Assembly: GCA_028692715.1 (NCBI GenBank)
Contig: JAQUWU010000040.1
Span: forward strand, 1-45,859
Source: Paludibacter sp.
GTDB lineage: Bacteria; Bacteroidota; Bacteroidia; Bacteroidales; Paludibacteraceae
Direction of reading: 5' to 3'
DNA length: 45,859 nt
The notes beneath the pieces were generated by a model. That model saw only the letters and a list, made by a program, of their open reading frames with translations. It did not search any database and was not told the origin of the DNA. Of the stretch, positions 4,168-24,171 are shown piece after piece (positions within the stretch are counted from its first letter, which is position 1; each line of letters starts with the position of its first letter). Both the position numbers and the translations under genes were made by a program.

Positions 4168-4207
4168 GGAATATAATTTATTGATTTATAATAAAGCAAC
4201 TTATATA

Positions 4208-7107: not shown

Positions 7108-7432
7108 TTCCTCAACTATTTCAATATATTTACTTTTTTCCTATTCTTTATTTTAAAAATTATGGAGTAGACAATGTTATAGCATTGTAAAACTGAAATA
7201 TCAAAATAGAGGAAGTTTAATCATTGATTTCATATTCTACTAAGAGATTTTTAAATGAAAAGGTTGGATTCTGTCCAAGAGTGATTTATCGTTTAACTGA
7301 ATATCCAACCCTTTTTAAAATAATTAATTTCATCATACGATTTACTACATAATACTTTAATTCAAGGATCTAAACTACATATTTCACTCTTAATTTTATT
7401 GTAATTTATTTCTAAAAATTCAATTTCTAAAA
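7108..7432. other. Gap between CPIC protein and TonB receptor
   Basis: No gene is seen in these 325 bases. The one structured item is a hairpin with arms GGTTGGAT (7262-7269) and ATCCAACC (7303-7310), a 33-base loop and a following CTTTTT. It could be a terminator or an attenuator controlling the receptor. No cobalamin or other known riboswitch was recognised. Confidence 0.5.
7262..7316 (+). terminator. Hairpin with T-run upstream of TonB receptor (possible attenuator)
   Basis: Perfect 8-bp arms GGTTGGAT and ATCCAACC, extended by weak A/T pairs, are followed by CTTTTT. The loop is long (33 bases), which is unusual for a simple terminator and leaves room for an alternative fold. Confidence 0.4.
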
Positions 7433-9935: not shown

Positions 9936-11630
9936 TTATTTCTCACACGCCCATGGCCAGGCTACAATTCCGCCTTCAAGCACTTTTACATTTGTATATC
10001 CGTTTGCCTGAAGAATCAGAGCTGCCTCGTACCCTCTTAATGATATTTTACACCAGGTAATTATTTCTGTGTTTTTGTCTTTTGGCATTTCGTCTAATCT
10101 TTTTCGAAGTTGCCCGAGTGGAATCAGTTTCTCGCCAATTCCCAAACGCATTTGTTCATATTCATCCGGATTGCGAACATCCAGCAATAACATATTGTCT
10201 TTTACTTTCAGTTTTTCTTTAAGGTCTTCAGCCGAAATTCCGGTATAGTAACCTTTCAATTTGTTTTGCATAATATGAGCAGTAGCAATACTATGATCGA
10301 TGGCTAAAGAGTAAGGAGGCGCATAGGGTAAATCTACTGTTGCCATATCATCCACTGTTAATTTACCTTTTATTGCCATTGCCCAAATAGCTATTTGTTT
10401 GCTAACGTCTCCGGGACCTATAACCTGAGCACCTAAAATTAACCCGGTAAGTTCATCAACAATTAATTTGGTTATCAGCAATTTACCATTCATAAATCCT
10501 GGTTTGTCCAGACTTGCATTAACAACGGTTTTGAGATTTAAGAAACCAAGTCTAATGGCATTACTCTCTGATAGTCCGGTAGATCCGACTCCATAATCAA
10601 ACACTTTGCAGATTCCTGTTTGAATAGTTCCCGGAAATTGCGATATATTTCCTAAAATTAAATTTTCACCTACAATTCGTCCTTGTAAATTAGCTAAATC
10701 GCCATAAGGTGCATGAACCGACAAGTCAGTAATAAGATTCGGAATTTCAACACAATCGCCCACAGCATAGATATCAGGATCAGACGTTTGCATAAACGAA
10801 TCTACAATAATTCCACCTGTTTTTCCGATTTTCAATCCTGCATCTACAGCCAACCTATTGTTTGGAACAACACCAATAGCAACTACAGCCAAATCGCAAG
10901 GGATTTCAGTACCATCCTGTAATTTTACCGATGTTAACTTTCCGTTTTCGCCTAAAAATGCCGCTACGCCATTTTGTAAAATTACATTTACTTTGGTCTG
11001 AACATATTTTTCGACCAAACGAGCCAAGTGTTTATCCAAAAATGTAAGCAATTGAGGCAAAAGTTCAATCAATGTAATTTCAATACCGGCTAGATGAAGG
11101 GCTTCAACAGTTTCGATACCAATTAAACCGCCACCAATTACAACAGCCTTTTTAATGATACCTTCATCGTGAACTTTACGTAAATAATCAGCATCTGTCA
11201 ACGATTGTAGTGAAGTAATACCGTCTAAATCAATTCCGGGAACAGGTGGTTTACGAGCTGTGGCACCCGTAGCAATAACGAGTTTATCGTAAGTTGCTCT
11301 TCCAACTTCGCCAGTCTTAATATCTCTGAATTCGATACGTTTGTTTTTCTTGTCAATAATAGTAACTTCAGTTTGTACTTTGGTAGTGATTTTTTTTGCA
11401 TTCCAAAAGAATTTTGAGTCACGCACTACCCCTGCCGGTGAGCACAAAAGTTGACTACGATCGTCAAAAAATCCTCCAACATAATACGGATAACCACACG
11501 AAGCCATAGAAAGATCAGAGGCTTTTTGATAAATTGTGATATCTGCATTTTCGTCCATCCTGCGAGCTTTCGAAGCTGCTTTGGGACCGGCTGCTGATCC
11601 ACCGATAACAATAATTTTTTTTGAAGCCAT
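9936..11630 (-). CDS. CoA-disulfide/persulfide reductase with C-terminal rhodanese domain
   Basis: This 564-residue cytoplasmic flavoprotein is a fusion of a pyridine nucleotide-disulfide oxidoreductase (about residues 1-450) and a rhodanese domain (about 460-560). The FAD site is IVIGGSAAGPKAA (7-19), the NAD(P)H site is VVIGGGLIGIE and the second FAD motif is IYAVGDC. The single active cysteine typical of CoA-disulfide reductases is C45 in SCGYPYY. The rhodanese cysteine is C527 in WCKISLRGYEA, close to the active loop of known CoADR-RHD proteins. Members reduce CoA disulfide, CoA persulfide or polysulfide with NAD(P)H. The precise substrate is not determinable. It lies 356 bases downstream of the Fe-S gene run on the same strand and may supply or detoxify sulfane sulfur. 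Confidence 0.93.
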   Translation of the reverse strand: MASKKIIVIGGSAAGPKAASKARRMDENADITIYQKASDLSMASCGYPYYVGGFFDDRSQLLCSPAGVVRDSKFFWNAKKITTKVQTEVTIIDKKNKRIEFRDIKTGEVGRATYDKLVIATGATARKPPVPGIDLDGITSLQSLTDADYLRKVHDEGIIKKAVVIGGGLIGIETVEALHLAGIEITLIELLPQLLTFLDKHLARLVEKYVQTKVNVILQNGVAAFLGENGKLTSVKLQDGTEIPCDLAVVAIGVVPNNRLAVDAGLKIGKTGGIIVDSFMQTSDPDIYAVGDCVEIPNLITDLSVHAPYGDLANLQGRIVGENLILGNISQFPGTIQTGICKVFDYGVGSTGLSESNAIRLGFLNLKTVVNASLDKPGFMNGKLLITKLIVDELTGLILGAQVIGPGDVSKQIAIWAMAIKGKLTVDDMATVDLPYAPPYSLAIDHSIATAHIMQNKLKGYYTGISAEDLKEKLKVKDNMLLLDVRNPDEYEQMRLGIGEKLIPLGQLRKRLDEMPKDKNTEIITWCKISLRGYEAALILQANGYTNVKVLEGGIVAWPWACEK

Positions 11631-11986: not shown

Positions 11987-12454
11987 TTAGAGTAAAAGTA
12001 ATTCTTTACCAATAATCTGAGCAGCTTTGTCTACGCAACGTGTACAAGGTCTTGACTTATAGTAGTTTTCGGTCCTATCGGCTGATTCCGGATTTTGAGG
12101 TACGTGCTTAATTTTTAGTAAATCGGCACAAATATAAGAACCCATTTCATATTTGAATTTATTGGCAACATCCTGAACTGCTTTGTAGTTTTTGTTCTTT
12201 GATGCTTTATCTTTTGTGTCGATAAACGGATATTTTAATCCTAACAACAGAAACATTCCCGAAACAGCACCGCACACTTCCCTTAATCGTCCCATTCCAC
12301 CGCCAAAAGAAGTTGCCAGTTTTGCTGACATTTCCTTATCCATTCCGTACATATCGGAAAAAGCCATAAAGACAGATTGTGAACAATTATATCCTTCTTC
12401 GAAAAACGCAACTGCCCTTGCCCTTCTTATTTCAATTTCTTCTTCAGCTGTCAT
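11987..12454 (-). CDS. C_GCAxxG_C_C family redox protein
   Basis: This 155-residue protein matches the C_GCAxxG_C_C family, also called split-soret cytochrome-like or putative redox-active proteins. C24 lies in GYNCSQSV, C61 in CGAVSG, a further Cys in YICADLL, and the closing pair is in RPCTRCV near residue 135. The conserved cysteines suggest metal or Fe-S binding, but the biochemical role of the family is not established. Its start overlaps the stop of the thioesterase gene by 4 bases (ATGA type), so the two are translationally coupled. It is the last member of the compact run that begins near 19644. Confidence 0.88.
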   Translation of the reverse strand: MTAEEEIEIRRARAVAFFEEGYNCSQSVFMAFSDMYGMDKEMSAKLATSFGGGMGRLREVCGAVSGMFLLLGLKYPFIDTKDKASKNKNYKAVQDVANKFKYEMGSYICADLLKIKHVPQNPESADRTENYYKSRPCTRCVDKAAQIIGKELLLL

Positions 12455-12876
12455 TTATCTATTATTTGAGTTGTTGTATGTTTTTGTATGGCTTCCAATA
12501 AAAAATCAGGAGCAGAACATGGTTTCCAGTTATCACGTCCAACGAATGCTATTTCAGTTTCAGCTTCATTAATTAACTGATTTTGTTCATTGTACATCTG
12601 ATAAGTAAACCACATACGAACACCTTTCATTGCTTTTAATCTGGTTTTCACTGTTAATAATTCATCGTAACGGGTTGTTTTGATAAATTTAAAGTTCATG
12701 GTAATTACCGGACACATTACACCCGATTGTTCGAGCGAATTGTACGAAACTCCGATACTACGAAACAACTCCCAACGAGCTGCTTCGTAATACTTTACAT
12801 AGTTGGCATGATGCATAGTTCCCATCTGATCGGTATCGGGATATGCCACCCTGAATTTATAGTCGTATGTAATCAT
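12451..12876 (-). CDS. Acyl-CoA thioesterase, 4HBT (YbgC/FadM-like)
   Basis: This 141-residue hot-dog-fold protein has the YPDTDQMGTMHHANYVKYYE segment of the 4-hydroxybenzoyl-CoA thioesterase family, including the catalytic Asp (of DTDQMG) and conserved His-Asn. It hydrolyses acyl-CoA thioesters in the cytoplasm; the chain-length preference is unknown. It overlaps the C_GCAxxG_C_C gene by 4 bases and follows the NifX-like gene after 57 bases. Its link to the Fe-S/metal theme is unclear and may be mere operon membership. Confidence 0.9.
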   Translation of the reverse strand: MITYDYKFRVAYPDTDQMGTMHHANYVKYYEAARWELFRSIGVSYNSLEQSGVMCPVITMNFKFIKTTRYDELLTVKTRLKAMKGVRMWFTYQMYNEQNQLINEAETEIAFVGRDNWKPCSAPDFLLEAIQKHTTTQIIDK

Positions 12877-12933
12877 TAATTTATTTACTATTTAAGTATT
12901 TACTATTTTAAATTGAATAACTTGGAAATTGCT

Positions 12934-13314
12934 TTAGTGATTACAAACGTGTTCATCAGCACCAGAGTTTGCATGAGCTGCACAACTTGAGCCGCCATCT
13001 TGAATATTCCCGGATAGGTATTCTTTTACGATTTCATCTATATCTCCTTTACAATTACGAATGACTTCGATATTTTGCGAAGCTAGTTTACTGATTGCTC
13101 CATCACCAATACCTCCAGCAAGCATTACACTTACACCCATTTCGGCTAAATCATAAGCGATATTCGATTTACAACCGCATCCCTGTGGTGATTGTAATGG
13201 TTGTTTTTCAAGAACTTCATTCTTTACGGAAATGTTATATATAGAGTAAAACTCGCAATGACCAAAGTGATCATCAATTCGGTTGTTTCCTTTTGTTGGA
13301 ACAGCAATTTTCAT
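12934..13314 (-). CDS. NifX/NifB-type dinitrogenase Fe-Mo cofactor family protein (1)
   Basis: This 126-residue protein has the NifX-like alpha/beta fold of the dinitrogenase iron-molybdenum cofactor family (about residues 1-100). It begins MKIAVPTKG and has the hallmark DHFGHCEFY. CGCKSNIAYDLAE and AGGIGDGAI follow, and the tail is rich in Cys and His (SSCAAHA, EHVCNH). Family members carry metal clusters; the ORP protein carries a Mo-Cu sulfide cluster. The Cys/His tail may be an extra ligand set. It is one of three NifX-like genes in this gene run and lies 24 bases downstream of the Mrp-type ATPase, a pairing usual for these proteins. Confidence 0.9.
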   Translation of the reverse strand: MKIAVPTKGNNRIDDHFGHCEFYSIYNISVKNEVLEKQPLQSPQGCGCKSNIAYDLAEMGVSVMLAGGIGDGAISKLASQNIEVIRNCKGDIDEIVKEYLSGNIQDGGSSCAAHANSGADEHVCNH

Positions 13315-13338
13315 TTGAATGGTTTTATTATTGATGTT

Positions 13339-14157
13339 TTACTTTATATATTTAAAAATCCGTGGTTGTGAAACAATTTTTTCGGTGAGTGTTGTAAATG
13401 CTTTTTCAATATTTGCGTCTGCAAAAATATCCTGTAATTTACCTTTATCACAGCTTTCGGCAATAGTTTCATTCATTGGAATTTGTGCTAATAATGGGAT
13501 ATCGAAAGTTTTAGAAAGAAATTCGGCACCCCCTTTTCCAAACAAAAAGTATTTTTCATCAGGATGAATAGTAGGACTAAACCAGGACATATTCTCAATA
13601 ACTCCAATAATAGGAAGACCTATTTTGTCATCCTGCAACATACCAATAGCTCGCTGAACATCGTCGTGTGCCATTTTTTGAGGCGTTGTTACAACAACTG
13701 CCCCTGCAATAACAAACTCCTGCATAAGTGTGATGTGAATATCGCCTGTTCCGGGAGGTGTGTCAACAATAAGATAATCCAACTCTTCCCAATCGGTGTC
13801 ATTCAACAATTGCTTTAACACATTGGTGACCATAGGTCCTCGCCAAACCACAGGTTGTGATTGTTCGAAAAAGAAACCAATACTCATCAATTTTATACCA
13901 AAGCGATTAAAGGGGACTAACATTGTTTTCCCGTTTTTCTCTACCGATTCGGGACGACCACTATCATTGAGATTAAATAATGTTGGGATGGAAGGACCAA
14001 AAATATCAGCATCAAGCAAACCAACTGAATGTCCATCGCGGGCAAGTGACAAAGCTAAACCTGCAGCTACAGTTGATTTTCCTACACCTCCTTTGCCGGA
14101 AACGACCATGATTATTTTTTTTACATTACTGAGTTTTGTTTTTTGTATTTGAGTCAT
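13339..14157 (-). CDS. Mrp/NBP35-type P-loop ATPase (Fe-S carrier)
   Basis: This 272-residue ATPase has the deviant Walker A motif SGKGGVGKSTVAAGLA (about residues 20-35), DADIFGPSIP, and the switch/Walker B region DTPPGTGDIHI. It belongs to the Mrp/ApbC/NBP35 family, which binds and transfers [4Fe-4S] clusters. It lacks the N-terminal DUF59 domain. The segment after IENMSWF reads SPTIHPDEKY, so the CxxC pair that bridges the cluster in many Mrp proteins is missing; this is also a common Bacteroidales variant. It lies 24 bases upstream of a NifX-like gene and 28 bases downstream of a PPOX-like gene. It likely loads or matures the NifX-like protein or other Fe-S targets, which is inference. 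Confidence 0.93.
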   Translation of the reverse strand: MTQIQKTKLSNVKKIIMVVSGKGGVGKSTVAAGLALSLARDGHSVGLLDADIFGPSIPTLFNLNDSGRPESVEKNGKTMLVPFNRFGIKLMSIGFFFEQSQPVVWRGPMVTNVLKQLLNDTDWEELDYLIVDTPPGTGDIHITLMQEFVIAGAVVVTTPQKMAHDDVQRAIGMLQDDKIGLPIIGVIENMSWFSPTIHPDEKYFLFGKGGAEFLSKTFDIPLLAQIPMNETIAESCDKGKLQDIFADANIEKAFTTLTEKIVSQPRIFKYIK

Positions 14158-14185
14158 AACAACAACTTTTAATTTGATTAGCTAT

Positions 14186-14563
14186 TTAAATAATTTTTTG
14201 TGCTCCTGCATAAACTTCTTGAATTTCAATAACAGCCACTCCATGGCCTGGCAAACGGGTAGAATTCCATTTTTTCATATCATCAAACAATTCTCCTTCA
14301 GTAAAATAACTTATCGTTCCTTTTATTTGATACGATTTATCCTCTGCCGTTAAGAAAAGGATAGACCCTGTACTTCCAGAACTTATATTCTCAAAAGTTT
14401 TACTGAAAAAATTATTTGCTACTAAAATTTTTTCGTCATTAAAGAGGGATACACAGGTTGCATAAATCGAATTTGGGTTTCCTTGTTTGTTAACTGTGCT
14501 AAAAACAATCGGCCCTTTCCTGGTTTTCCAGGCTTCGCTTACAATTTCGGGTAATTTGTTCAT
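14186..14563 (-). CDS. PPOX-like flavin-binding protein
   Basis: This 125-residue protein has the split-barrel fold of the pyridoxamine-5'-phosphate oxidase-like family. Features are a GPIVFSTVNKQGNPNSIY strand-turn near residue 20, NNFFSKTFENI, and a basic WNSTRLPG loop. Such proteins bind FMN, F420 or heme and act as small oxidoreductases. The substrate is unknown. Its place between the mini-ferredoxin and the Mrp ATPase suggests a redox role in the metal/Fe-S operon. The 85-base gap upstream holds a CCCCTAACCCC-type repeat. Confidence 0.8.
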   Translation of the reverse strand: MNKLPEIVSEAWKTRKGPIVFSTVNKQGNPNSIYATCVSLFNDEKILVANNFFSKTFENISSGSTGSILFLTAEDKSYQIKGTISYFTEGELFDDMKKWNSTRLPGHGVAVIEIQEVYAGAQKII

Positions 14564-14579
14564 TTTGTTGATTTTTTAT

Positions 14580-14600
14580 GACCCCTAACCCCTAAAGGGG
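14580..14600. repeat. CCCCTAACCCCTAAAGGGG-type dispersed repeat, single copy
   Basis: ACCCCTAACCCCTAAAGGGG lies between the mini-ferredoxin and PPOX genes. The same motif appears as inverted pairs at 35559-35643 and 37551-37690 and in a looser form near 25680. Only one arm is visible here. This motif is common between genes in Bacteroidota. Confidence 0.7.
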
Positions 14601-14648
14601 AGCAAAAGAGTCGGTTGTTTAACTAATTATGTATTTAATATCACTTTT

Positions 14649-14759
14649 TTATTGTTTAGTATTTAACTGTTTGATAGCTTCGGATGGACAAATCCGAACA
14701 CATTTCCTACAGTTTTTACATAAGTCTTCAAGATCTACGTAAATTTTTTCTGTTTTCAA
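14649..14759 (-). CDS. 36-residue single-cluster mini-ferredoxin
   Basis: On the minus strand a frame from TTG (14759-14757) to TAA (14651-14649) encodes 36 residues with a complete [4Fe-4S] signature, CKNCRKCVRICPSEAI (C-x2-C-x2-C-x3-CP), after a short acidic lead and before a QLNTKQ tail. Three in-frame TAA codons directly precede the TTG, so the protein cannot be longer upstream. It starts 16 bases after the VOC gene stop and fits the spacing of the operon. It could supply electrons or a cluster to the neighbouring MinD-ferredoxin, Mrp and PPOX proteins. It could also be the relic of a two-cluster ferredoxin. The non-ATG start is the main uncertainty. Confidence 0.55.
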   Translation of the reverse strand: MKTEKIYVDLEDLCKNCRKCVRICPSEAIKQLNTKQ

Positions 14760-14775
14760 GCTTTATTATTATCTC

Positions 14776-15156
14776 TTAAATCGATTGTTTTATCTCAAAA
14801 ATATTCTGATTTGAATCACTTAAAAATAAAGTTCCGGAGTTGGGTAAAATAGATGTTTTGTAGCCATTTTGGATTGCTTTTGCTGTTATTTCAGTCACCC
14901 TATGAGTTGAAAAGCAAACATGATTAAAGGTATTGATTTTCAGATTATCCTGATTATCCAGAATAAACAGTTCCAATTCCATTTCAGGGCATTCACCGGA
15001 GATTACCGTGGTGGCAGTTAGGATATTAAAGATATTAGCTGCATTTTCCTGAGTTAAAACAAAAGTTTTTTTGATTTTGAAATCAAAAATTTCCTCGTAA
15101 AAAGTTTTTACATCTTTTTCACAAACAGTTAATCCAATATGTTTTATATTATTCAT
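14776..15156 (-). CDS. VOC (glyoxalase/bleomycin-resistance) superfamily protein
   Basis: This 126-residue protein has two beta-alpha-beta-beta-beta halves of the vicinal oxygen chelate fold. The likely metal ligands are His of HIGLTV (N-terminal), Glu of MELELF, His of FNHVCF and Glu of IFEIKQ. It resembles methylmalonyl-CoA epimerase/lactoylglutathione lyase-like members in size, but the substrate cannot be told. It lies 26 bases downstream of the TonB receptor and 16 bases upstream of the mini-ferredoxin, so it is probably in the same operon. Confidence 0.85.
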   Translation of the reverse strand: MNNIKHIGLTVCEKDVKTFYEEIFDFKIKKTFVLTQENAANIFNILTATTVISGECPEMELELFILDNQDNLKINTFNHVCFSTHRVTEITAKAIQNGYKTSILPNSGTLFLSDSNQNIFEIKQSI

Positions 15157-15182
15157 AATGATTTTATATTAGTACACACTAA

Positions 15183-17414
15183 TTAGTTAATTCCAAAAGG
15201 CACTTTCAAGCTTAAACTTATGTTTCTACCCTCATTGAAATAGCCCAAAGGTTTCAGAGTTGATAAATGGTCGAAATATTGAGTATCAAAAATATTATTA
15301 CCCGAAAGTCCAATATTCATCAATTGATTGCTGAGTTTTATATCAGCATTAATTCCTACATTTACAAGCGTATATCCATCCGTTGCTGATTCATAAGGCG
15401 ATGGATGGTTTTGTTTTAATGCCGTAAGAGCGGATATTTTAAAATTCGGGTGTAATAAAAACCCAATCTTTTCCCGTTCGACCCATGTTTCGTAGCGGAA
15501 CTTATGGGCTGGAATAAAGGGTAGATAATTATCGTTTTCCTGTACTCCAATTACAGATGAATAAGTTCCCTGAACATGCCACCAAGGCATTGACTTAGGA
15601 TGAAAATGAATTCCTGCTTCCCCACCGTATAATTTAGCATTTGTTTGTGAAAAACGATAAATTGTCAAACCGGTTGATGTCAACTCAGTTGTAGGAGAAA
15701 TAAAAATATAATTATCAATCAGGTTGTAAAATCCAGCCAAATCGAATGATAAATACTCTCCATGAAAATGCATGCTTATGTCCGTTTCATAAGCATCTTC
15801 TGCTTGCAATTCTGCATTTCCAATTTCATATCGGTCGCCATGCATTCCGTTGGAAGTAAGTTCCGATAAATTTGGTGCACGATATGATTTTGCTAAATTA
15901 GCCCTGAGCATAAATTTTTCATTCAGGTTGTATGTCAATCCCACTGAAGCATTGGGACTAGAAAAATCAAGTGATAAGGGAGCATGATAACTCTCAGTAC
16001 CTAGAGTGCCCATTGCATAAGTTTCAGTTTTGTACATATCAAATCGAAGTCCTCCTTGCAATTTTAATTTTTCAAAGAACGTGTATTGTATCAAGCCAAA
16101 AACGCCAATATTATTTACATCAGCATCGGGTAGAAATTGAGCCGCACGATTGTTCTGGTTTCGATTTGTCTGGCTTTTCCCCTGAAAACCTACAATGTAA
16201 TCTGAACCCACTTTCGATGGCAAATATACTTTCGATTCGTAGGTAATTGTATTCAGGTTCATCTCAACAACCGGTATATCGAGCGTGGTTTGTAATTTAC
16301 GCAAAGCAACCTGATAAGCAACGTTAGTTTCCCATTTAAAATTTCCAAGATATAATTTATTCTGAGAAGAAATTAAATGATGATTCAAATCCTGATACCA
16401 AATATCATTGTCTCGACCTTGCTCTGTAATAAGCGGGATTACGGCAGGGACTGACATTCCTAATTTCTGTTTAAAATAATCGTATGATAGTTTAAACGTT
16501 CCAATTTGACCTGTATAACCTGTATTTGAGCTTACCGACCATTCGTTAAACCTTGAATTTGGAACAAAAGCACCACCACCTTGTCTGTAATCGGCATGAG
16601 TTTTATTACTGACTCTCAATCCGCCAAAATAATGTTGAGACGCTCCTTTTATACCCAAACTATTATTTAGTCCCAATGTGTTGGAATGTAATTGAGTTTG
16701 ATAATCACCAATAATTTCACCCGTTGGTGCTGTTTTTCCCTTGATAAAATTAATTACGCCACCAATGGCATCTGAGCCATAGAGTAACGATGCCGGTCCT
16801 TTTATTATTTCAACTTGGTCTACATCATTATCGTCAACGCCTAAGGGATGATTTTCGCTAAACTGATAATTTTCAATACGCACTCCATTGCACAACACCA
16901 AAATATCGTTCATTGAAAGTCCTCTGATAACGGGTTTAGAAACTCCTTGTCCTTTGGAAATCATATCTACTCCGGGAACTTGCATAAGCGATTCCATAAA
17001 ATTTGGCGTACCTGACTGTAAAATATCTTTACTTTTCAACACATCAATCTTTACGGCATTATCATGTTGCGAACTGATTAATCCACCGGTAATAACTACT
17101 TCCTGCGATTCTATCACTGATTCGGAAAGTGTTACATCTAATTGATTTAAAGAATTTTGAAAATCAGTAAGCTTTATTAAAGTGTTATATCCTATATACG
17201 AGAATTGTATTTTTATTTTTCCGGCCGGGAGGTTTTCAATACGATATTCTCCATTTTTATCTGAGACAGTTCCCCTGTTCAATTCCGGTAAAACAATGGT
17301 ACATCCTACTAAGGGACTACCGTTTGTAGATGTAACTTTGCCAGTTATTTGTATTTGTGCTGACAAGCTTATACCGATAAACATCAGTATAAGCAATAAT
17401 GTTATTTTTTTCAT
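15183..17414 (-). CDS. TonB-dependent outer-membrane receptor inside the ORP-like gene run
   Basis: This is a 743-residue receptor. It has a signal peptide (residues 1-19, ending SLSA-Q), a CarboxypepD_reg-like domain (about 22-105), a plug with VSKPVIRGLSMND, NHPLGVDDNDV and IIKGPASLLYGSDAIGGV, and a beta-barrel ending in LSLKVPFGIN. It is a paralogue of the 7433-9853 receptor and, like it, follows a CPIC/His small membrane protein (153 bases away). Its position between the paired MinD-ferredoxin ATPases and the Mrp/NifX genes suggests that it imports the metal or metal complex that these proteins handle. The ligand itself is unknown. Confidence 0.92.
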   Translation of the reverse strand: MKKITLLLILMFIGISLSAQIQITGKVTSTNGSPLVGCTIVLPELNRGTVSDKNGEYRIENLPAGKIKIQFSYIGYNTLIKLTDFQNSLNQLDVTLSESVIESQEVVITGGLISSQHDNAVKIDVLKSKDILQSGTPNFMESLMQVPGVDMISKGQGVSKPVIRGLSMNDILVLCNGVRIENYQFSENHPLGVDDNDVDQVEIIKGPASLLYGSDAIGGVINFIKGKTAPTGEIIGDYQTQLHSNTLGLNNSLGIKGASQHYFGGLRVSNKTHADYRQGGGAFVPNSRFNEWSVSSNTGYTGQIGTFKLSYDYFKQKLGMSVPAVIPLITEQGRDNDIWYQDLNHHLISSQNKLYLGNFKWETNVAYQVALRKLQTTLDIPVVEMNLNTITYESKVYLPSKVGSDYIVGFQGKSQTNRNQNNRAAQFLPDADVNNIGVFGLIQYTFFEKLKLQGGLRFDMYKTETYAMGTLGTESYHAPLSLDFSSPNASVGLTYNLNEKFMLRANLAKSYRAPNLSELTSNGMHGDRYEIGNAELQAEDAYETDISMHFHGEYLSFDLAGFYNLIDNYIFISPTTELTSTGLTIYRFSQTNAKLYGGEAGIHFHPKSMPWWHVQGTYSSVIGVQENDNYLPFIPAHKFRYETWVEREKIGFLLHPNFKISALTALKQNHPSPYESATDGYTLVNVGINADIKLSNQLMNIGLSGNNIFDTQYFDHLSTLKPLGYFNEGRNISLSLKVPFGIN

Positions 17415-17567
17415 CTTTATTTTGTTTTCTGTATGTTAAGTACTGGAAATAATATAATGTCTTATTACTATTAAGCGAATAAGTTGTTCATCTTATTTTT
17501 ATTAAATAGTAAATGGTACATTGTAAAATAGTAAATACTTAGTCTATTCCTGTATGTATTTTATTGA

Positions 17568-17903
17568 TTAAATTGTATTTAAAATCAATAGTACAGGAGG
17601 CGAACGCAACAAAAAACTGAGAAAAAAATATTTATTTACAACAACTTCATTAATAGCAAAAACAAGCTCTCCAAAACATTCTTTTAGGTACTCATGATAG
17701 AATTTATGCGTACTATTAAACTGAAAAAAATGAAATGCACAGATAGGACAAATCTTGTGGTAAACATCTAAATGGTTTTCGTCCTTAATGATTTTCGTAA
17801 TAGTAAAAACATGATCGTGCCTGTGAAATACTTTTACTGCCATAGGCATCAAAAATATCCAAAGAAGGACTAGAGAGATTATCTGTTTTTTTACGGAACT
17901 CAT
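17568..17903 (-). CDS. Small His/CPIC membrane protein, paralogue
   Basis: This 111-residue protein has an N-terminal hydrophobic segment (about 8-24), a histidine cluster VFHRHDHVF, a KICPICAFHFFQF motif near residue 51, and a C-terminal LLRSPPVLL stretch. The order of elements matches the 113-residue protein at 6766-7107, though overall identity is low. It starts 18 bases after the stop of the second MinD-ferredoxin gene and precedes the TonB receptor, so it is in the operon. A periplasmic metal-binding accessory is the likely role, by inference. Confidence 0.7.
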   Translation of the reverse strand: MSSVKKQIISLVLLWIFLMPMAVKVFHRHDHVFTITKIIKDENHLDVYHKICPICAFHFFQFNSTHKFYHEYLKECFGELVFAINEVVVNKYFFLSFLLRSPPVLLILNTI

Positions 17904-17921
17904 TCTTTACCTTTTGTTAAT

Positions 17922-18788
17922 TCAGCTATTAAGAGTAATCAGTTTATAACTCTCTTTTATTAGCTTTGCAACCTCGGAATTGGGTGCAAATTCAATTATA
18001 CTTTTACAATTGACCATCGCTTCAACAATTTGAGGATCGAAAGGAATTTTCCCAATTACAGAAACATTATTTTCAATACAGTATGATTCAATTGTGTCTG
18101 CCATTTCGGTATTTAAATCAAATTTATTGATGATAACACTTGTTTTAATTTTAAAATTAGAAGTCACTTCCATTGTGCGTTTCAAATCGTGTAATCCCGA
18201 TAGTGTTGGCTCGGTAACAATTACCACATAATCAACCCCTGTAATTGTTGAAATTACAGGACAGCCAATTCCAGGAGGGCCATCAATAATAATGGTTTGT
18301 AAATCGTTTTCTTTAGCAATATTTTTGGCTTTGTCACGCACAATATTTACTAACCTACCCGAGTTTTCTTCACCGGGTGAAAGTCTTCCGTAAACCATTT
18401 TCCCATTTCTAAAATCACCTGCAAACATACGACTTTTATCTTCATTCACCATAGTTATGGCAGAAACAGGACAAATACGTGAACACAACTGACAGCCATC
18501 GCAGGACGTTTCGAAAATTTCTACCTCTCCATTAATTTCAGAAATAGCATCAAACCGACAATAATTAATACATTCGCCACAATTGGTACATTTATCTTTA
18601 TCAATTACAGCCTTCTGACCCGAAATAAAAACCTCTTCTTCGGTATGCGTTGGATTAAATATAATATATAAATTAGCAGCATCTACATCACAATCAGCTA
18701 AAACCACTTTTTCGGATAATGTGGCGAAAGCAGCACTGATACTACTTTTTCCTGTTCCTCCTTTTCCACTAATTACAGCTATTTCCAT
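17922..18788 (-). CDS. MinD-type ATPase with inserted 2x[4Fe-4S] ferredoxin domain (B)
   Basis: This 288-residue P-loop ATPase has GKGGTGKSSISAAFA near the N-terminus (residues 9-23) and ADCDVDAANLYI. A ferredoxin domain is inserted after about residue 60, with two full cluster motifs, CTNCGECINYC and CDGCQLCSRICP. The DGPPGIGCPV switch region follows. This is the MinD-superfamily ATPase with inserted ferredoxin domain (COG1149-like). Such proteins occur in pairs next to NifX/ORP-type proteins in anaerobes. It overlaps the preceding paralogue by 20 bases, which suggests translational coupling and probably a heterodimer. It likely uses ATP to assemble or insert a metal or Fe-S cluster. Confidence 0.93.
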   Translation of the reverse strand: MEIAVISGKGGTGKSSISAAFATLSEKVVLADCDVDAANLYIIFNPTHTEEEVFISGQKAVIDKDKCTNCGECINYCRFDAISEINGEVEIFETSCDGCQLCSRICPVSAITMVNEDKSRMFAGDFRNGKMVYGRLSPGEENSGRLVNIVRDKAKNIAKENDLQTIIIDGPPGIGCPVISTITGVDYVVIVTEPTLSGLHDLKRTMEVTSNFKIKTSVIINKFDLNTEMADTIESYCIENNVSVIGKIPFDPQIVEAMVNCKSIIEFAPNSEVAKLIKESYKLITLNS

Positions 18789-19644
18789 ATACTTCTATTA
18801 TTTTGTTGTATAATTCATTGAACTTTATTTCCCATTCAGGATCGTTGCGTGAAAGTATTTCTCCCTTCGAATAGCAGGTTGCAATATTTTTATCAAATGG
18901 GATTTTCATCAATAAAGGAATATTTTCATTTTTCAAATAATCTGCCACCTCATCATTGCCAAGTCCATCCCTATTAATAATGACAGCACATGGTTTATTT
19001 AAACTTTTTAGCGTTTCAACGGACTGTTTTAAATCGCTCATACCAAAGGGTGTTGGTTCGGTAACCAGTACCACAAAATCGGACAAAGCAACGGTTTGAA
19101 TAAACGGACAAGATGTTCCAGGAGGTGAATCGAGTAAAACAATATCGGAATCTGCTGCTTTAATAGCACCTTTAATAACAGGAACGGCAGAATGAACGCC
19201 CACTTTCATTCGTGCTTCGATAAGACTCGTTTTTTCAGTAATTTTATATTGATTTACCTTGCCAAGCGATTCCACTTTTTCGGTAATGGCATCAAATTCA
19301 CAGGCCACAGAACACGCTCCACATCCGTGACATAAATCTTCTAAAACATTTATGATTTTTTCATTGGGCAAAAAGAAAATAGCATTGTAATTGCAATACT
19401 CATAACACTTTCCACATAAGGTGCATTTATCTTTATCAATAATGGGAACCAGCTGAGTGATATCAGTTGTTTTTTGATGTATTCCTTCGATAAACATCAG
19501 GTCATTTGGTTCTTCGGCATCGCAATCGACCAGCGTTACCAGGTTGTTCTTTTGTTGCAAGCTGAAAAAAAGGTTGGTAGAAACAAAGGTTTTTCCTGTC
19601 CCTCCTTTTCCGCTGGCAATTGCAATTTTAATTTTTTTCATCAA
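18769..19644 (-). CDS. MinD-type ATPase with inserted 2x[4Fe-4S] ferredoxin domain (A)
   Basis: This 291-residue partner of the next gene has the P-loop ASGKGGTGKTFVSTN (residues 9-23) and VDCDAEEPNDLMF. Two [4Fe-4S] motifs, CTLCGKCYEYC (about 76-86) and CHGCGACSVAC (about 105-115), are followed by DSPPGTSCPF. The first three Cys spacings are normal; the Pro after the fourth Cys is replaced by Asn or Glu. The role is as for its partner. The stretch upstream (19645-20410) has no intact gene but holds a ZIP transporter relic, so this gene may need its own promoter or depend on readthrough from the DUF89 gene. Confidence 0.93.
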   Translation of the reverse strand: MMKKIKIAIASGKGGTGKTFVSTNLFFSLQQKNNLVTLVDCDAEEPNDLMFIEGIHQKTTDITQLVPIIDKDKCTLCGKCYEYCNYNAIFFLPNEKIINVLEDLCHGCGACSVACEFDAITEKVESLGKVNQYKITEKTSLIEARMKVGVHSAVPVIKGAIKAADSDIVLLDSPPGTSCPFIQTVALSDFVVLVTEPTPFGMSDLKQSVETLKSLNKPCAVIINRDGLGNDEVADYLKNENIPLLMKIPFDKNIATCYSKGEILSRNDPEWEIKFNELYNKIIEVYGNSCN

Positions 19645-19721
19645 TTATATTTCATTTTTTTATGTAAATGATAAATAGACCCAAACAGATAAATAGAATC
19701 TGTAAAATGGATTCGTTTCGT

Positions 19722-19920
19722 TTACTCTGCATTTCCGGAATCAGTTAAAGCAATATAAAAGAAACCAACAGTTGAAAATGCCAGAGTGTAGGGAATTAAT
19801 GCTTTTACCTGAGATAGCCCACTTTTGAGTAGAATTCAAAAATCACCTAATTCCTGAGGTACTTCGTGAAAAACGATGGAAACACATACAAGTAAGATAA
19901 GTTGACATTTCCTGCAAATT
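19722..19920 (-). pseudogene. Decayed ZIP-family metal transporter
   Basis: Reading the minus strand from about 19914, the frame gives LLVCVSIVFHEVPQELGDF, then a TGA stop, then ILLKSGLSQVKAL, and then a hydrophobic FSTVGFFYIALTD segment ending at TAA (19724-19722). HE-(I/V)-PQE-(I/L)-GDF followed by ILL-x-SG is the signature metal-binding helix of ZIP transporters, and FIYIAL-x-D matches a later helix. The region between KAL and the last helix is shortened, and the N-terminal half is gone. It is therefore a relic with at least one stop and deletions. It lies in the same orientation inside the metal/Fe-S gene run, between the DUF89 and MinD genes, so the run once probably included an inner-membrane metal importer. 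Confidence 0.65.
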
Positions 19921-20126
19921 TTTATCATTAGCTAACAAAAGGATAGACAAACACAATACTACCAGCTATTAAAGCTATATTTGTAAAAAGAAGTGGTTAT
20001 GACATCAAAAATAAATAGCTAAATAATTAAGCACATAATTCACATAATAATAACATGCGAATTATGTGTTAAATACAACAGTAAAGAAAATTCATTTTCA
20101 AACAAATTTAATTACTTCTACAAAAA

Positions 20127-20388
20127 TAAGTAATTGAAAACAAATAATGTCGTATTTTGCATGAAAATATTTAAGAATAGAACGCTGATTTTCACTGATA
20201 GAGTGGATTTGAAAAAACGGATTTGAATTCCGATAAATCGGAATGATTTACAGATAGTTGCGTCTTAATCATCTTGCCGAAGGCAAGAAAAATCCGTTTT
20301 GTTTTATCCTTCATTTTCCGATAAATCAGCGAAAATCAGCGTTCTATTAATGTTTCTAAATGCTACATTAATTTGTTCCATTTACTTA
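20127..20388 (-). repeat. Structured intergenic element, copy 2
   Basis: This is the inverted partner of 4208-4486. Its terminal inverted repeats are clean: AATAGAACGCTGATTTTC at about 20178 and its complement GAAAATCAGCGTTCTATT at about 20331-20348. Inside are AAAACGGATTT/AAATCCGTTTT arms, the palindrome ATTCCGATAAATCGGAAT and the hairpin CTTGCCGAAGGCAAG. It carries no gene. It sits just downstream of the DUF89 gene stop, so it may also act as a transcription end. Confidence 0.8.
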
Positions 20389-20410
20389 AATTCAAACTGT
20401 TTCTATATAA

Positions 20411-21322
20411 CTAGATTTCTATTGATGTATTGTAAACCACAAAACTACCTTTTGGGACTTCCAATAATTCCGCAATAACATTACATTTTACCATTAATAA
20501 AAAGAATATTCTCGGATCATTTTCGTTAATTAATCCTTCCAGATTTCCCTGTCCTTTTGAGATAATTAAGTCCGCATTTTCGTAAGCATCCAAAAAAGCA
20601 GGGCTACTTTGACTCAACACTGTAGAAGGGGCATCAGAGCCATTCGAAATCAATTGGGCAACTTCATTCATACCAACTTCAAGGGCATCTTCCATGGTTG
20701 CATCATTCATCACCGCAGCTCCTCGCACAGCAAATGTCAGATTTTTATGATGAATTGTTTCAATAAAAAGCTTATCCAACACAATTTCGCCTGCATTATC
20801 GCCCAGATAAAGGATATTTTGCGCAGAAGAAATTCGCTTTTTAAGTTCTAAAGAATGGTCAATTGTAAATTTCGATGCCATTACCTTGTCAATGGTCTGA
20901 TGAACATCAAAATTTGCGCTTGGACCATAATCCATAATGTTACCGGCTATGGAAAGTCTTAAGGCACTATCAAAAGAATCGTTTGCCGAAAGAATTTTTG
21001 GTTTCCATTCGTCGTACAGAACTTTTGCCAACTGGTTACTTTGCGTCTTCTCATCCTTATACAGATCATCAGAATTCGTCAACCGACAAAATTCTTTATT
21101 TAGTTTTTGATGAATTTCAGGCATAGTCAACGCGGCACTTTGCCCCATTGTCAGATTATAAAATCCAAAAAATTCCTGCCGTTCTCTATAAGGTACATTA
21201 TTTATATTCAAAAGTCGCTCGAATGCTTCGAACTGACAAGCCATGCATCGTCCGTCTACTTCGTATCTCTTCTTCTTAATGCGCACATTCGTGATTCTCA
21301 TCGTGATTACAATAGTTGGCAC
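20411..21322 (-). CDS. DUF89 family protein (ARMT1-like damage-control phosphatase)
   Basis: This 303-residue protein belongs to the DUF89/ARMT1-like family. It has an N-terminal C-x2-C pair (GRCMACQFEAF), the LYLGDNAGEIVLDKL motif that carries the metal-binding Asp-Asn, and KGQGNLEGL near the C-terminus. Family members are metal-dependent phosphatases that remove damaged phosphometabolites; prokaryotic members with the Cys pair have no defined substrate. ATG at 21322 gives a 47-base overlap with the upstream NifX-like gene; the ATG at residue 8 (21301) gives 26 bases. Both keep the Cys pair, and the second seems as likely. The overlap suggests coupling with the NifX-like gene. This pairing recurs in anaerobes. 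Confidence 0.88.
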   Translation of the reverse strand: MPTIVITMRITNVRIKKKRYEVDGRCMACQFEAFERLLNINNVPYRERQEFFGFYNLTMGQSAALTMPEIHQKLNKEFCRLTNSDDLYKDEKTQSNQLAKVLYDEWKPKILSANDSFDSALRLSIAGNIMDYGPSANFDVHQTIDKVMASKFTIDHSLELKKRISSAQNILYLGDNAGEIVLDKLFIETIHHKNLTFAVRGAAVMNDATMEDALEVGMNEVAQLISNGSDAPSTVLSQSSPAFLDAYENADLIISKGQGNLEGLINENDPRIFFLLMVKCNVIAELLEVPKGSFVVYNTSIEI

Positions 21323-21638
21323 TTAGGGTTAATTTGTCGGCTAAAAAATCAACAACGAGTTCTTTTACTGCTTTCATTGGAGCACCAACGAAAGCATTGA
21401 TGTTTTGAGCATTAAACAGGTTAATTGCTTTTTGTCCCATTCCACCAGCAATTACATCGGTTACACCAAAAGTGGCAACAAACCGGGGATAAACACCTGG
21501 CTCATGAACTGGTGGAGTTACTTCTTTGATTTCTGTTACTTCATTATTTACAACCGTAACAATTGCAAAATATTGACAATGTCCAAAATGTGAACATAAA
21601 ACTCCGTTTTCCATCGGAATTGCGATACACTTATCCAT
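21276..21638 (-). CDS. NifX/NifB-type Fe-Mo cofactor family protein (2)
   Basis: This 120-residue NifX-like protein has the CSHFGHCQYFAIV hallmark (about residues 15-27), VIAGGMGQKAINLF, and a Cys/His tail NYCNHDENHECAH. It is likely a small carrier of a metal cluster. The His/Cys tail echoes that of the protein at 12934-13314, whereas the 101-residue paralogue at 22155-22460 lacks such a tail. It lies between DUF5320-like genes and the DUF89 gene and overlaps the latter. Confidence 0.9.
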   Translation of the reverse strand: MDKCIAIPMENGVLCSHFGHCQYFAIVTVVNNEVTEIKEVTPPVHEPGVYPRFVATFGVTDVIAGGMGQKAINLFNAQNINAFVGAPMKAVKELVVDFLADKLTLSANYCNHDENHECAH

Positions 21639-21674
21639 ATTTTTAAAAATCTATATTATTATTTTATTTGTTAA

Positions 21675-21914
21675 TTAATTATCTCCGTGACGAAAACGGC
21701 GTCCCATGCCCATTCCCAAACCACCTTGTCCGCGACCTAAGCCTTTTCCTCGACCTAATCCCCGTCCCTTTCCGTTTTCAGGGATGTTTTCGGTTGATTG
21801 TTCATCGTTTTCAATTTGATCATTTTTATTTTTTCCAAAGTTAGTGCATTTTCCCATCTTTCGACCACTCATAGCACCTTGTCCTTTTGGACCTTTTTGA
21901 TTTAAACCCGGCAT
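21675..21914 (-). CDS. DUF5320-like Gly/Arg-rich small protein (1)
   Basis: This 79-residue protein starts MPGLNQKGPKGQGAMSGRK with a KMGKC motif, and then has a low-complexity GRGLGRGKGLGRGQGG tail ending in RRFRHGDN. The N-terminal pattern MP-x(3)-GPxGxG-x(2)-(T/S)GR-x-(L/M)G-x-C is that of the DUF5320 family, always found near NifX-like and MinD-ferredoxin genes in anaerobes. Its function is unknown. The conserved Cys and the flexible basic tail suggest a scaffold or metal-binding peptide. It is preceded by a second member of the family only 24 bases upstream. Confidence 0.8.
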   Translation of the reverse strand: MPGLNQKGPKGQGAMSGRKMGKCTNFGKNKNDQIENDEQSTENIPENGKGRGLGRGKGLGRGQGGLGMGMGRRFRHGDN

Positions 21915-21938
21915 AATACCTCCTTTTTAAAATTGTAT

Positions 21939-22124
21939 TTATTGTTTTCCTCCTTTTAAGCGTTTCTTTTGACCATCCCCACCACCTTCTTTGCGGCGTT
22001 TTCCCATCCCGACTCCAAGGACTTTCATCTTTTCTTCGTCGGTAAGTTCTTTATTACAATTACCTAATTTACGCCCCGAAGCAGAACCTTTTCCTTCAGG
22101 ACCGGTACCATCTAATTTTGGCAT
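21939..22124 (-). CDS. DUF5320-like small protein (2)
   Basis: This 61-residue protein begins MPKLDGTGPEGKGSASGRK and has LGNC at about residue 20-23, the DUF5320 signature, followed by a Lys/Gly-rich tail. A clear purine-rich ribosome-binding stretch is not obvious. It lies between a NifX-like gene (30 bases upstream) and its paralogue. The function is unknown; the gene context is typical for the family. Confidence 0.8.
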   Translation of the reverse strand: MPKLDGTGPEGKGSASGRKLGNCNKELTDEEKMKVLGVGMGKRRKEGGGDGQKKRLKGGKQ

Positions 22125-22154
22125 AATATTATATTTATAATTGTTTAAATTTTA

Positions 22155-22460
22155 TTACAATGTCGAAATAATTTCGCTTATGGTTTTATCCTTTTCATTT
22201 ATCATTTCGATACTAAGACTATGTAGCAGAGAATGGATTTTGGTTCCAAAATCTCCGGCAAATATTTTTTTAACTCCTGTTTGCGCTACGAATTGTACTG
22301 CTTCAGGACCTGCACCTCCCGAAGAATCTTTTGCAGGATTTACTAGAAACTCCGTTTCTTTTGTATCGGTATTATAAATGGCAAAATAAGCGCAACGTCC
22401 GAATCGTGCATCGATTTTAGAATCCATTTGATTCCCTTCTGATGTAATGGCAATTTTCAT
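22155..22460 (-). CDS. NifX/NifB-type Fe-Mo cofactor family protein (3)
   Basis: This 101-residue protein is the shortest of the three NifX-like proteins. It begins MKIAITSEGNQMDSKIDARF with the hallmark RFGRCAYFAIYN, and contains GAGPEAVQFVAQTGVKKIFAGDFG. It has Arg where the other two have His in the FGHC motif, and no Cys/His tail, so its cluster ligands may differ. In ORP-type systems the ORP itself is a protein of about this size. It lies 105 bases downstream of the MBL gene. Confidence 0.9.
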   Translation of the reverse strand: MKIAITSEGNQMDSKIDARFGRCAYFAIYNTDTKETEFLVNPAKDSSGGAGPEAVQFVAQTGVKKIFAGDFGTKIHSLLHSLSIEMINEKDKTISEIISTL

Positions 22461-22565
22461 ATATTTATTATTTTTAATTGGAATTGTTTGTCAATATTCA
22501 ATTTTATGATTTCAAAAAAAACGTTTGCTGTGAAAAAATATTTTATTACCCGAAATATAAGAATA

Positions 22566-23402
22566 TTAGTTCAGTTCTATTGTTGTTACAAAGCCTGTAT
22601 AAAACCAGTGTATGGCAGAATCCAGCTTTTGTTTAATAAGTGAATAAGCCTTTTCACCGGTACAATGCCCCGTATAGAATTTTGTATCGGGGAATTCAGT
22701 AATTATCCTTTCTGCTATATCAGTAATTTCTTTTTCAGTTTCGTATTGATTGTCGATTCCATCCAACAAATGAAATCCTCCGATTAATACTTTTATAGGC
22801 TTGTTGATCGTAGTTTTCACTGAATCAAGAATATTTAATATCCCACAATGTGCACAGCCTGTATAAACAACTTGTTCGTTTTCACCAAAACTTATAATTA
22901 ATTCATGATTAAAGTCATCGGATAAAAGACCATTCCCATTTTCTTTTAATAAAGTCTTATTCGCTTTTGGCATGGGAAAATGGAAGGTTGTACAAGGAAA
23001 CACATGAATCTCATTTTCTAAAACAATTTCAGAATCTACAAAAATAAATCGCTCTTTATAAGCTGTAAAATCAATGTCTGAACTTATTTTTTTCATTCCA
23101 TTCCGTGAAGAATAAAAACGCTGAGAAAGTGCATTTTGAGAGATTATTATTTTGGCTTTTGTATTTAATTGAAGAAATGCATCTAATCCACCAATATGAT
23201 CGGAGTGACCGTGCGAAATAAAAACATAATCAATATCAGGTATATCAACCTCCACTTTTTCAGCATTCTCGATGAAATTGGAAGAAGCACCTGTATCGAG
23301 AAGACATTTATATTTTTCAGTTTCAATATAAATACATAAACCATGTTCTTTTTTAAGCTCTGGACTTAATATTCTATTATCGGACAATACCTTTATTCTC
23401 AT
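22566..23402 (-). CDS. MBL-fold metallohydrolase (dihydropterin-phosphate synthase-like)
   Basis: This 278-residue protein has the metallo-beta-lactamase fold, with the metal motif SHGHSDHIGG at residues 63-72, LDTGAS near 35-40, and later YTGCAHCGILNIL and YTGHCTGEKAY segments that provide further ligands. This subgroup resembles the methanogen MptE/dihydropterin aminobenzene phosphate synthase-like proteins and is often found beside DUF134 and NifX-like genes. A hydrolase role is clear from the motif; the substrate is unknown. It starts 5 bases after the DUF134 gene stop, so the two are co-transcribed. Confidence 0.88.
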   Translation of the reverse strand: MRIKVLSDNRILSPELKKEHGLCIYIETEKYKCLLDTGASSNFIENAEKVEVDIPDIDYVFISHGHSDHIGGLDAFLQLNTKAKIIISQNALSQRFYSSRNGMKKISSDIDFTAYKERFIFVDSEIVLENEIHVFPCTTFHFPMPKANKTLLKENGNGLLSDDFNHELIISFGENEQVVYTGCAHCGILNILDSVKTTINKPIKVLIGGFHLLDGIDNQYETEKEITDIAERIITEFPDTKFYTGHCTGEKAYSLIKQKLDSAIHWFYTGFVTTIELN

Positions 23403-23407
23403 GTTAT

Positions 23408-23815
23408 TTATTTATTGATTAATTGTAATTCTTCATCGTTACAGGTTTCACAATCTTTACATGGAAGATGATTTTCTGATCCGTCCACTAACTTATAGCA
23501 TCGTTTACACCTAAACCAAAGCCGGTCAAACTGTACGTTTCCTCCTTCAATCAAAATCATTTTTCCTTCCATTAGTGCCTTTGCAATTGTTTTACGCGCA
23601 TTTTCATAAATACGTGTTAAAGTTGGGCGTGACACATTCATTCTCTCAGATGCTTGTTCCTGATTTAATCCTTCATAATCAAGTAACCGAATAGCTTCGT
23701 ACTCGTCTATTTGAAGTTTGACTGATTCTAACGCATTCCTTTTTATACCAAAGGGTTTGAACCCAAGCATCAGCGGCGGAGAGTCTATTCTTCGTTCTTG
23801 TTTTGGACGAGGCAT
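23408..23815 (-). CDS. DUF134 family DNA-binding regulator
   Basis: This 135-residue protein begins MPRPKQERRI, the DUF134 signature, and has a sigma-70 region-4-like helix-turn-helix (about residues 45-85; LNQEQASERMNVSRPTLTRI). A Cys-rich tail (C-K-R-C and C-K-D-C-E-T-C, about residues 103-126) probably binds Zn or an Fe-S cluster. The family regulates or accompanies NifX/MinD-ferredoxin genes. It is the first gene of the minus-strand run and is preceded by a good promoter that overlaps a 14-base palindrome, so it may control its own operon in response to metal or redox state. That is inference. Confidence 0.88.
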   Translation of the reverse strand: MPRPKQERRIDSPPLMLGFKPFGIKRNALESVKLQIDEYEAIRLLDYEGLNQEQASERMNVSRPTLTRIYENARKTIAKALMEGKMILIEGGNVQFDRLWFRCKRCYKLVDGSENHLPCKDCETCNDEELQLINK

Positions 23816-23865: not shown

Positions 23866-23897
23866 CAAAGATACAAATAGTTTTGAACATATGTTCA
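23866..23897 (-). promoter_or_regulatory. Promoter and palindromic operator upstream of DUF134 operon
   Basis: On the minus strand the -7 element TATCTTTG (23873-23866) matches TAnnTTTG. The perfect 14-bp palindrome TGAACATATGTTCA lies at 23884-23897 and overlaps the -33 position. The layout TGAAC-N4-GTTCA is the size and spacing of a CRP/FNR-type half-site pair. No other copy was found in the window. The predicted start of transcription is near 23860. Confidence 0.6.
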
Positions 23898-24013: not shown

Positions 24014-24171
24014 AAATGCGGATTTTCGCTGTCACAGTGGATTTGAATATTGCTTTCGACTATATGATTTTCAGTCATTTATACGTCATTATTCACCCTG
24101 AAAACGAGAAAAATTCTATTTTATATCCCTTATTTTTCCCTTAATCAGCGAAAACTACCGTACTATTAATT
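24014..24171 (-). repeat. Degenerate third copy of the structured element
   Basis: GCGGATTTTCGCTGTCACAG at about 24018 followed by TGGATTTGAA matches the left end of copy 2 with changes. CCCTTAATCAGCGAAAACTA followed by ...TACTATTAAT at about 24139-24170 matches its right end. The centre has diverged beyond recognition. It is probably an old insertion of the same element. Confidence 0.5.

Follow-up and report, generated by a model that had tools for sequence, protein, structure and literature searches.

What does a TonB-dependent outer-membrane receptor do inside a cluster of orange protein (ORP)-type genes, and does it belong there? The question is raised by a 45,859-nucleotide stretch of DNA from Paludibacter sp. 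(hereafter the window; GenBank assembly GCA_028692715.1, contig JAQUWU010000040.1), which is contig C59 of a 4.85-Mb assembly. An original prediction made from the letters alone had listed the genes from 11987 to 23815 and placed the receptor and a CPIC/His gene between a pair of MinD-type ATPases and an Mrp/NifX pair; every gene it named was recovered, all on the minus strand, and the receptor and CPIC genes do lie at that position. ORP-type NifX/MinD clusters are widespread in anaerobes, and the NifX-type orange protein of the ORP complex carries a Mo-Cu cluster. The window cluster is a Bacteroidales version of the ORP-type NifX/MinD-ferredoxin/Mrp cluster, having an adjacent pair of MinD-type ATPases with two [4Fe-4S] ferredoxin (Fer4) motifs each (MinD1, 18769-19644; MinD2, 17922-18788), three NifX-family (PF02579) proteins, all above the Pfam cut-off (A, 12934-13314, and B, 21276-21638, with FGHC motifs; C, 22155-22460, with FGRC), and an Mrp/NBP35-type ATPase of 272 amino acids with a single cysteine and no CXXC (13339-14157). 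It is headed by a DUF134 (UPF0251) helix-turn-helix regulator with a C-terminal cysteine cluster (23408-23815), and MinD2 is followed by a CPIC protein (17568-17903), of an unnamed partner family of the receptor, and by a ZnuD-like TonB-dependent receptor (15183-17414). The reading we prefer, at about even confidence, is that an ORP-type metal/Fe-S cluster headed by a DUF134 repressor took in a cassette of CPIC and ZnuD-like receptor, so that metal uptake is run jointly with cofactor assembly.

To establish how common this arrangement is, named relatives (Paludibacter and other Bacteroidales, almost all metagenome-assembled genomes) were searched with MinD2. Among the best 80 of 538 matches, both MinD types were found in 79, a NifX-family gene in 71, DUF134 in 63 and all three in 62. 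Adding the regions around 11 matches elsewhere and removing six duplicate contigs (L052, L053, L054, L061, L062 and L119) left 85 loci, of which 63 had at least 3 kb of sequence downstream of MinD2 and 22 had less. Both MinD types, NifX-family and DUF134 genes occurred together in 64 of the 85, a gene-presence count affected by the numerous contigs that stop near the cluster (many of the other loci were cut by contig ends). The usual order was DUF134-(MBL)-NifX-DUF5320-NifX-(DUF89)-MinD-MinD, and this core gene set is ordinary within the order Bacteroidales, beyond chance. CPIC and receptor followed MinD2 in only one of the 85 loci besides the window, that of Paludibacter sp. UBA5753 (L047, on the same contig as G117; hereafter the sister genome), where VOC, ferredoxin, PNPOx, radical SAM and Mrp genes come downstream of the receptor.

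From the receptor side, the association was recurrent. Orthologues (E up to 1e-120) were found in 8 of 200 sampled genomes of the family and 73 of 393 of the order (the window's own genome being in both), or 80 genomes together; five candidates per genome were scored in the family sample and two in the order sample, so that these counts are perhaps low. In neighbourhoods from 79 of the 80 genomes (G032 was left out), a receptor was counted as linked if a NifX-family, MinD-ferredoxin or DUF134 gene lay within 8 kb. This was the case for 13 of 79 loci from 11 GTDB families, three in the window's own family and ten in ten others. The original prediction had held that its joint system would be an accident of this genome if the receptor and CPIC genes were unlinked to MinD/NifX genes in relatives; linkage recurs, and the comparison of neighbourhoods that it proposed bears out the association from the receptor side but finds it rare from the MinD side. 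The linked loci took varied forms: a compact DUF134-NifX-NifX-CPIC-receptor operon (L223); a run from DUF134 to Mrp and then the receptor (L224); the receptor followed by DUF5320-zinc ribbon-MinD-MinD-x-NifX (L258); receptor-Mrp-OsmC-DUF134 (L204); MinD-MinD-radical SAM-Mrp-CoA reductase-CPIC-receptor (L181); the receptor facing away from a divergent DUF134 gene (L186 and L197) or, in L187, from a divergent NifX/MinD core; a cydAB-CPIC-receptor run that diverges from DUF134 (L210); and a core located 5 kb upstream, separated from the receptor by two other genes (L205). At L257 a PF02579 protein (44 bits; 2355-2690) with a histidine-rich loop, HTHNHDHSHNHSQEEHKHSHSE, overlaps the receptor's stop codon by 4 nt. 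At L210 (8933-15584) the cytochrome bd genes, CPIC and receptor form one run, with a perfect copy of the palindrome described below between the run and the divergent DUF134. A DUF134/NifX/MinD run in another genome (L225, 345-10337, G383) ends in a peroxiredoxin gene and in that of another TonB receptor, which is distant from the receptor family (97 bits).

In 8 of 80 genomes the receptor had a DUF134 gene no more than 8 kb away, compared with 0.40 expected under random placement (calculated with rounded genome sizes), and the control gene PEPCK lay as close to DUF134 in 1 of 67 genomes (70 places). In the congener G018 (contig C244), PEPCK is 5 kb from a DUF134 gene; in the window itself PEPCK (5023-6618) is 17 kb from DUF134. 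Two further control candidates were rejected: the window's second receptor was too rare (4 of 80 genomes), and another receptor of the own genome had too few close orthologues (five including its own copy, all in the window's GTDB family and none with a DUF134 gene on its contig). On a receptor tree of 78 rows (L238 was excluded as too short; L181 was included though partial), the 13 linked rows require 12 changes, equal to random labels, and linkage has therefore been gained or lost many times rather than inherited as a single accident.

The unit that travels with the receptor is the CPIC gene, which stands directly upstream of it in 45 of the 72 loci where the contig left room for it (400 bp or more). 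The window's CPIC protein, a small membrane protein, has a hydrophobic N-terminal segment, HxH and CxxC motifs and a C-terminal LLRSPP; H27, H29, C52, F57, R100, P102 and P103 were invariant in 20 aligned sequences. The window protein had no match in Pfam or NCBIfam, and four other members had none in Pfam, nor the one of these four also tried in NCBIfam. Compared with the sister genome, nucleotide identity is ∼70% in MinD and 65% in VOC but 81 to 90% across the CPIC and receptor genes in between; at the protein level the receptors are 90% and the CPIC proteins 76% identical. Synonymous divergence (dS) is 0.76 for the receptor and 0.68 for CPIC, and 1.14 for PNPOx, 1.61 for NifX A, 1.78 for MinD1 and 2.64 for MBL, being saturated for MinD2, DUF134, VOC, Mrp and the thioesterase. 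The pair is less diverged than its flanks and therefore has a younger common history than the surrounding genes. On the receptor tree, the nearest rows after the sister genome include other GTDB families, and four other rows of the window's family are placed in a distant part. Taken together, these comparisons suggest that CPIC and receptor form a younger, movable cassette. Immediately beside the cluster, on the plus strand at 6766-9853, are genes for a second CPIC-type protein and another receptor, which shares 34% identity with the first; in the sister genome the orthologue of this second receptor is on another contig.

A candidate for the regulatory site of the cluster is the palindrome TGAACNNNNGTTCA (TGAAC-N4-GTTCA). 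In the window it takes the form TGAACATATGTTCA (23884-23897); the DUF134 start follows 69 bp later, and an TATCTTTG element (23866-23873), which we take to be a Bacteroidota -7 type promoter element, follows 10 bp later. Judged by the window alone, the palindrome does not exceed chance, as one site with no more than one mismatch was present where 1.92 were expected. In 1.78 Mb of related loci without duplicates, perfect copies occurred 55 times, compared with 0 to 2 in five shuffles that preserved single-base composition only, and 47 of the 55 were within 350 bp of the start of a cluster-type gene, which for 37 of these was DUF134. In the 200 bp preceding DUF134 genes and in their first 40 bp (matches of <60 bits, <40 amino acids or with <200 bp of region were dropped), the site was perfect in 32 of 68 and had at most one mismatch in 54 of 68; a reversed control pattern was found in 0 of 68. 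Perfect sites before other genes were few (MBL, 2 of 23; NifX C, 4 of 64; peroxiredoxin, 1 of 20; receptor, 1 of 36); these box counts leave out L175, a copy of L047. At receptor loci, a perfect palindrome stands 32 bp before the receptor start in L204, two boxes lie between DUF134 and CPIC in L197, and L186, L205 and L258 carry boxes with one mismatch. A dyad shared by receptor and CPIC promoters in general was rejected, as the best dyads occurred in 4 of 32 upstream regions and the maximum of 20 shuffles was also 4. The own genome has a second DUF134-NifX-DUF5320 locus (L227, C13, 20000-39000), with a perfect box before DUF134 and with Mrp, peptide deformylase, Fur-family and ferritin-like genes as neighbors. 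The simplest reading of this distribution would be that DUF134 binds its own promoter at the palindrome.

The cargo of the receptor was approached through its relatives. A profile search of solved structures placed ZnuD first (E = 7.7e-33) and the haem receptor PhuR next, and comparison of the receptor model (mean pLDDT 75.7) by Foldseek and VIA-align again ranked ZnuD top, with haem, B12 and copper receptors close behind (VIA Z: ZnuD 36.0, ChuA 34.4, BtuB 34.3, OprC 33.6); such a comparison of folds cannot settle the cargo. ZnuD binds zinc through Asp-99, His-100, Glu-340 and His-499 (PMC4557270; PDB 4rdr). His-100 and His-499 align with H189 and H525 of the receptor, which are invariant in 29 of 29 sequences; the Asp-99 position (188) is not conserved (H in 16, N in 13), and Glu-340 falls outside the aligned stretches. 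A divalent metal ion, zinc first, is favored as the probable cargo because the receptor resembles ZnuD, related clusters contain ZIP transporter genes, CPIC has His/Cys motifs and one of the NifX proteins is histidine-rich. No observation pointed to a molybdenum complex.

Under the preferred reading of a captured uptake cassette, DUF134 would be a probably autoregulated repressor that binds the palindrome over its own promoter and senses metal or Fe-S status via its cysteine cluster. On its release, the NifX-family carriers, the two MinD-ferredoxin ATPases and Mrp would be made to assemble or repair metal-sulfur clusters; the co-produced receptor would move a metal ion, Zn2+ being favored, across the outer membrane, CPIC would take it on the periplasmic side, and the imported metal might finally reach the NifX-family proteins. 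Several observations weigh against this reading. The receptor is absent from 84 of the 85 MinD loci (22 of the 85 with <3 kb downstream), and 66 of 79 receptor loci, some on short contigs, are unlinked. The excess of the receptor over PEPCK is modest (Fisher P = 0.04; 0.07 if the window is left out). The own genome has eight perfect palindromes and six of the control pattern, thus no enrichment; two of the eight precede its two DUF134 genes. In a phylum-wide draw, the palindrome stood before only 2 of 29 DUF134 genes (both of family f133), 25 of the 29 being from one GTDB family (f135) that lacks it. The window receptor has no box of its own, and co-transcription is uncertain because 6.5 kb separate the receptor from the operator and the 0.77-kb gap between them contains a repeat element and a dead gene. 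That dead gene is a ZIP importer, and with its decay the cluster shows no visible means of moving metal from periplasm to cytoplasm. The receptor also scores far below the cut-off of the NCBIfam ZnuD model (NF038289; 126.3 bits, cut-off 950), and haem receptors have comparable histidines and close fold scores.

A rival reading is that CPIC and receptor are an independent uptake unit, inserted by chance in a transcribed cluster and borrowing only its promoter, which we consider possible, if on the unlikely side. The conserved unit would then be the CPIC-receptor pair itself, mostly unlinked to the core and with a younger history than its flanks, and the second CPIC-receptor pair outside the cluster, like the sister genome's second receptor on its separate contig, would be a further case of such independence. 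Chance insertion is, however, not easy to reconcile with an association that recurs in 11 families and always involves one rare gene set, or with the two boxes that L197 has between DUF134 and CPIC-receptor, the one that precedes the receptor in L204 and the NifX-CPIC-receptor operon of L223. A coupling of receptor and NifX/MinD genes that is recurrent, and sometimes has a common operator-like site, is partly supported by these data; most members of both families are uncoupled. A different doubt concerns the cargo, namely that what the receptor imports is not a free ion but haem or a metal chelate, with the cluster serving oxidative or iron stress. The best NCBIfam model for the receptor is in fact a haem-receptor family, though below its cut-off (TIGR01785; 164.1 bits, cut-off 316.85), the plug histidine is also aligned in PhuR, ChuA is close in fold, and peroxiredoxin, cytochrome bd or OsmC genes occur in some linked loci. 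The histidines shared by the receptor and ZnuD presumably occupy the same places as two in the haem receptor ShuA. ShuA requires these two, His86 and His420, for haem (PMC8977872, in the part cited). Haem receptors use similar histidines and the cargo is therefore unsettled, but sequence similarity is higher to ZnuD (116.6 compared with 79.1 bits) and the neighbors suggest metal ions (with no search aimed at haem-uptake partners), and we regard import of haem or a chelate as improbable. Finally, the palindrome could be a LexA/SOS site, its core GAACATATGTTC being the core of the Firmicutes LexA consensus (in the part of PMC2248561 cited). Against this, it was found in 0 of 24 readable recA promoters (of 30 loci, in genomes from the same set; lexA promoters were not examined), it stands before DUF134 itself, and the variant TGAGCATATGCTCA (TGAGC-N4-GCTCA), found before two DUF134 genes of other Bacteroidota in the phylum-wide draw, differs symmetrically; a LexA site is highly improbable.

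The remaining genes of the window cluster show that it is partly eroded. Following DUF134 on the minus strand are an MBL-fold metallohydrolase (22566-23402), NifX C, DUF5320 protein a (21939-22124), DUF5320 protein b with a Gly/Arg-rich tail (21675-21914), NifX B and a DUF89/ARMT1-like phosphatase domain protein (20411-21322), after which a 0.77-kb gap (19645-20410) precedes MinD1, MinD2, CPIC and the receptor. The gap contains a ZIP metal transporter gene decayed by stops, frame changes and deletions (matches at 19655-19990 on the minus strand, E = 9e-17); ZIP is intact in 11 of the 85 non-duplicate MinD loci, typically immediately before MinD1. After the receptor come a VOC/glyoxalase-type protein (14776-15156; 20.1 bits, just below the Pfam cut-off of 20.6), a short ferredoxin with one cluster motif (14649-14759; 36 amino acids, TTG start), a PNPOx-family flavin protein (14186-14563), Mrp, NifX A, a 4HBT thioesterase (12451-12876) and a C_GCAxxG_C_C protein (11987-12454). 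A CoA-disulfide-reductase/rhodanese fusion on the same strand (9936-11630), with relatives in some related clusters, such as L181, may be the last member. The ferredoxin, which the original prediction had called a mini-ferredoxin, is present as a gene; it aligns with the C-terminal end of the sister genome's 138-amino-acid two-cluster ferredoxin and looks like a remnant, probably truncated. It is this truncation, together with the decay of ZIP, that marks the cluster as partly eroded. The sister genome also has a radical-SAM gene between PNPOx and Mrp, a position without one in the window. A ∼260-bp element, with ends resembling inverted repeats, is present in two copies (4203-4461 and 20151-20420; 91% identical over 259 columns), one of them between DUF89 and the decayed ZIP gene, and shorter partial matches to it lie near 24015-24170.

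More tentatively, and with somewhat less than even confidence, we propose that the operator TGAAC-N4-GTTCA defines a Bacteroidales regulon in which DUF134, as a metal- or Fe-S-sensing repressor, controls NifX carriers fed by a dedicated ZnuD-like receptor and periplasmic CPIC, making one regulated route from outer-membrane capture to metal-sulfur assembly that was built several times by cassette capture. The DUF134-linked palindrome and the recurrent pairing of NifX/MinD-type genes with a ZnuD-like receptor appear to be new; the literature searched, with subscription journals mostly outside its scope, described neither an operator for DUF134 nor a TonB receptor in a NifX/MinD cluster, although DUF134 is named once in PMC10434189. 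The operator-like site and the receptor pairing offer handles on the metal, the signal and the genes of ORP-type clusters, and a joint system, if true, would for the first time assign a testable role to the unnamed CPIC family and to the uncharacterised DUF134. Recurrent pairings in distant relatives, sometimes behind the same regulatory site, hint that a cell can operate metal uptake jointly with cofactor assembly.

Among known systems, the ORP genes of Desulfovibrio, as far as PMC6345978 is cited here, likewise bring together an Mrp ATPase, NifX-family proteins and a pair of proteins that have two [4Fe-4S] motifs, and in vitro ORP proteins receive Fe-S clusters from MrpORP. In Desulfovibrio, Mrp is fused to a NifX domain and has CXXC, whereas the window's Mrp is unfused and NifX A is a separate gene; the window cluster adds DUF5320, DUF89, receptor and CPIC genes; and the sigma-54 control described for orp genes (same source) contrasts with DUF134 and its palindrome. 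The window set would seem to work like the Desulfovibrio genes but to differ in detail, and it appears to be regulated in another way. In IssA (PMC5524996, in the part cited), a NifX-family domain serves to hold iron-sulfur material in the form of thioferrate, and the protein has a Gly-rich cationic tail. A Gly/Arg-rich tail is here on the separate DUF5320 protein, and the cited part of PMC5524996 mentions neither ATPases nor a receptor beside IssA; thioferrate-type holding is a conceivable alternative function of the NifX proteins and of the DUF5320 protein that bears this tail. As for the receptor, OprC (PMC8610252, in the part cited) is a metal-ion TonB-dependent receptor of similar fold that works without a metallophore, but it binds copper via C143, M147, H323 and M325, and the window's receptor family has no invariant cysteine. 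ZnuD of Neisseria (PMC4557270 and PDB 4rdr, in the part cited) is the closest solved relative, two of its four zinc ligands aligning with invariant histidines; in contrast to ZnuD, the window receptor, ∼20% identical to it, has a CarboxypepD_reg-like N-terminal domain and a CPIC partner.

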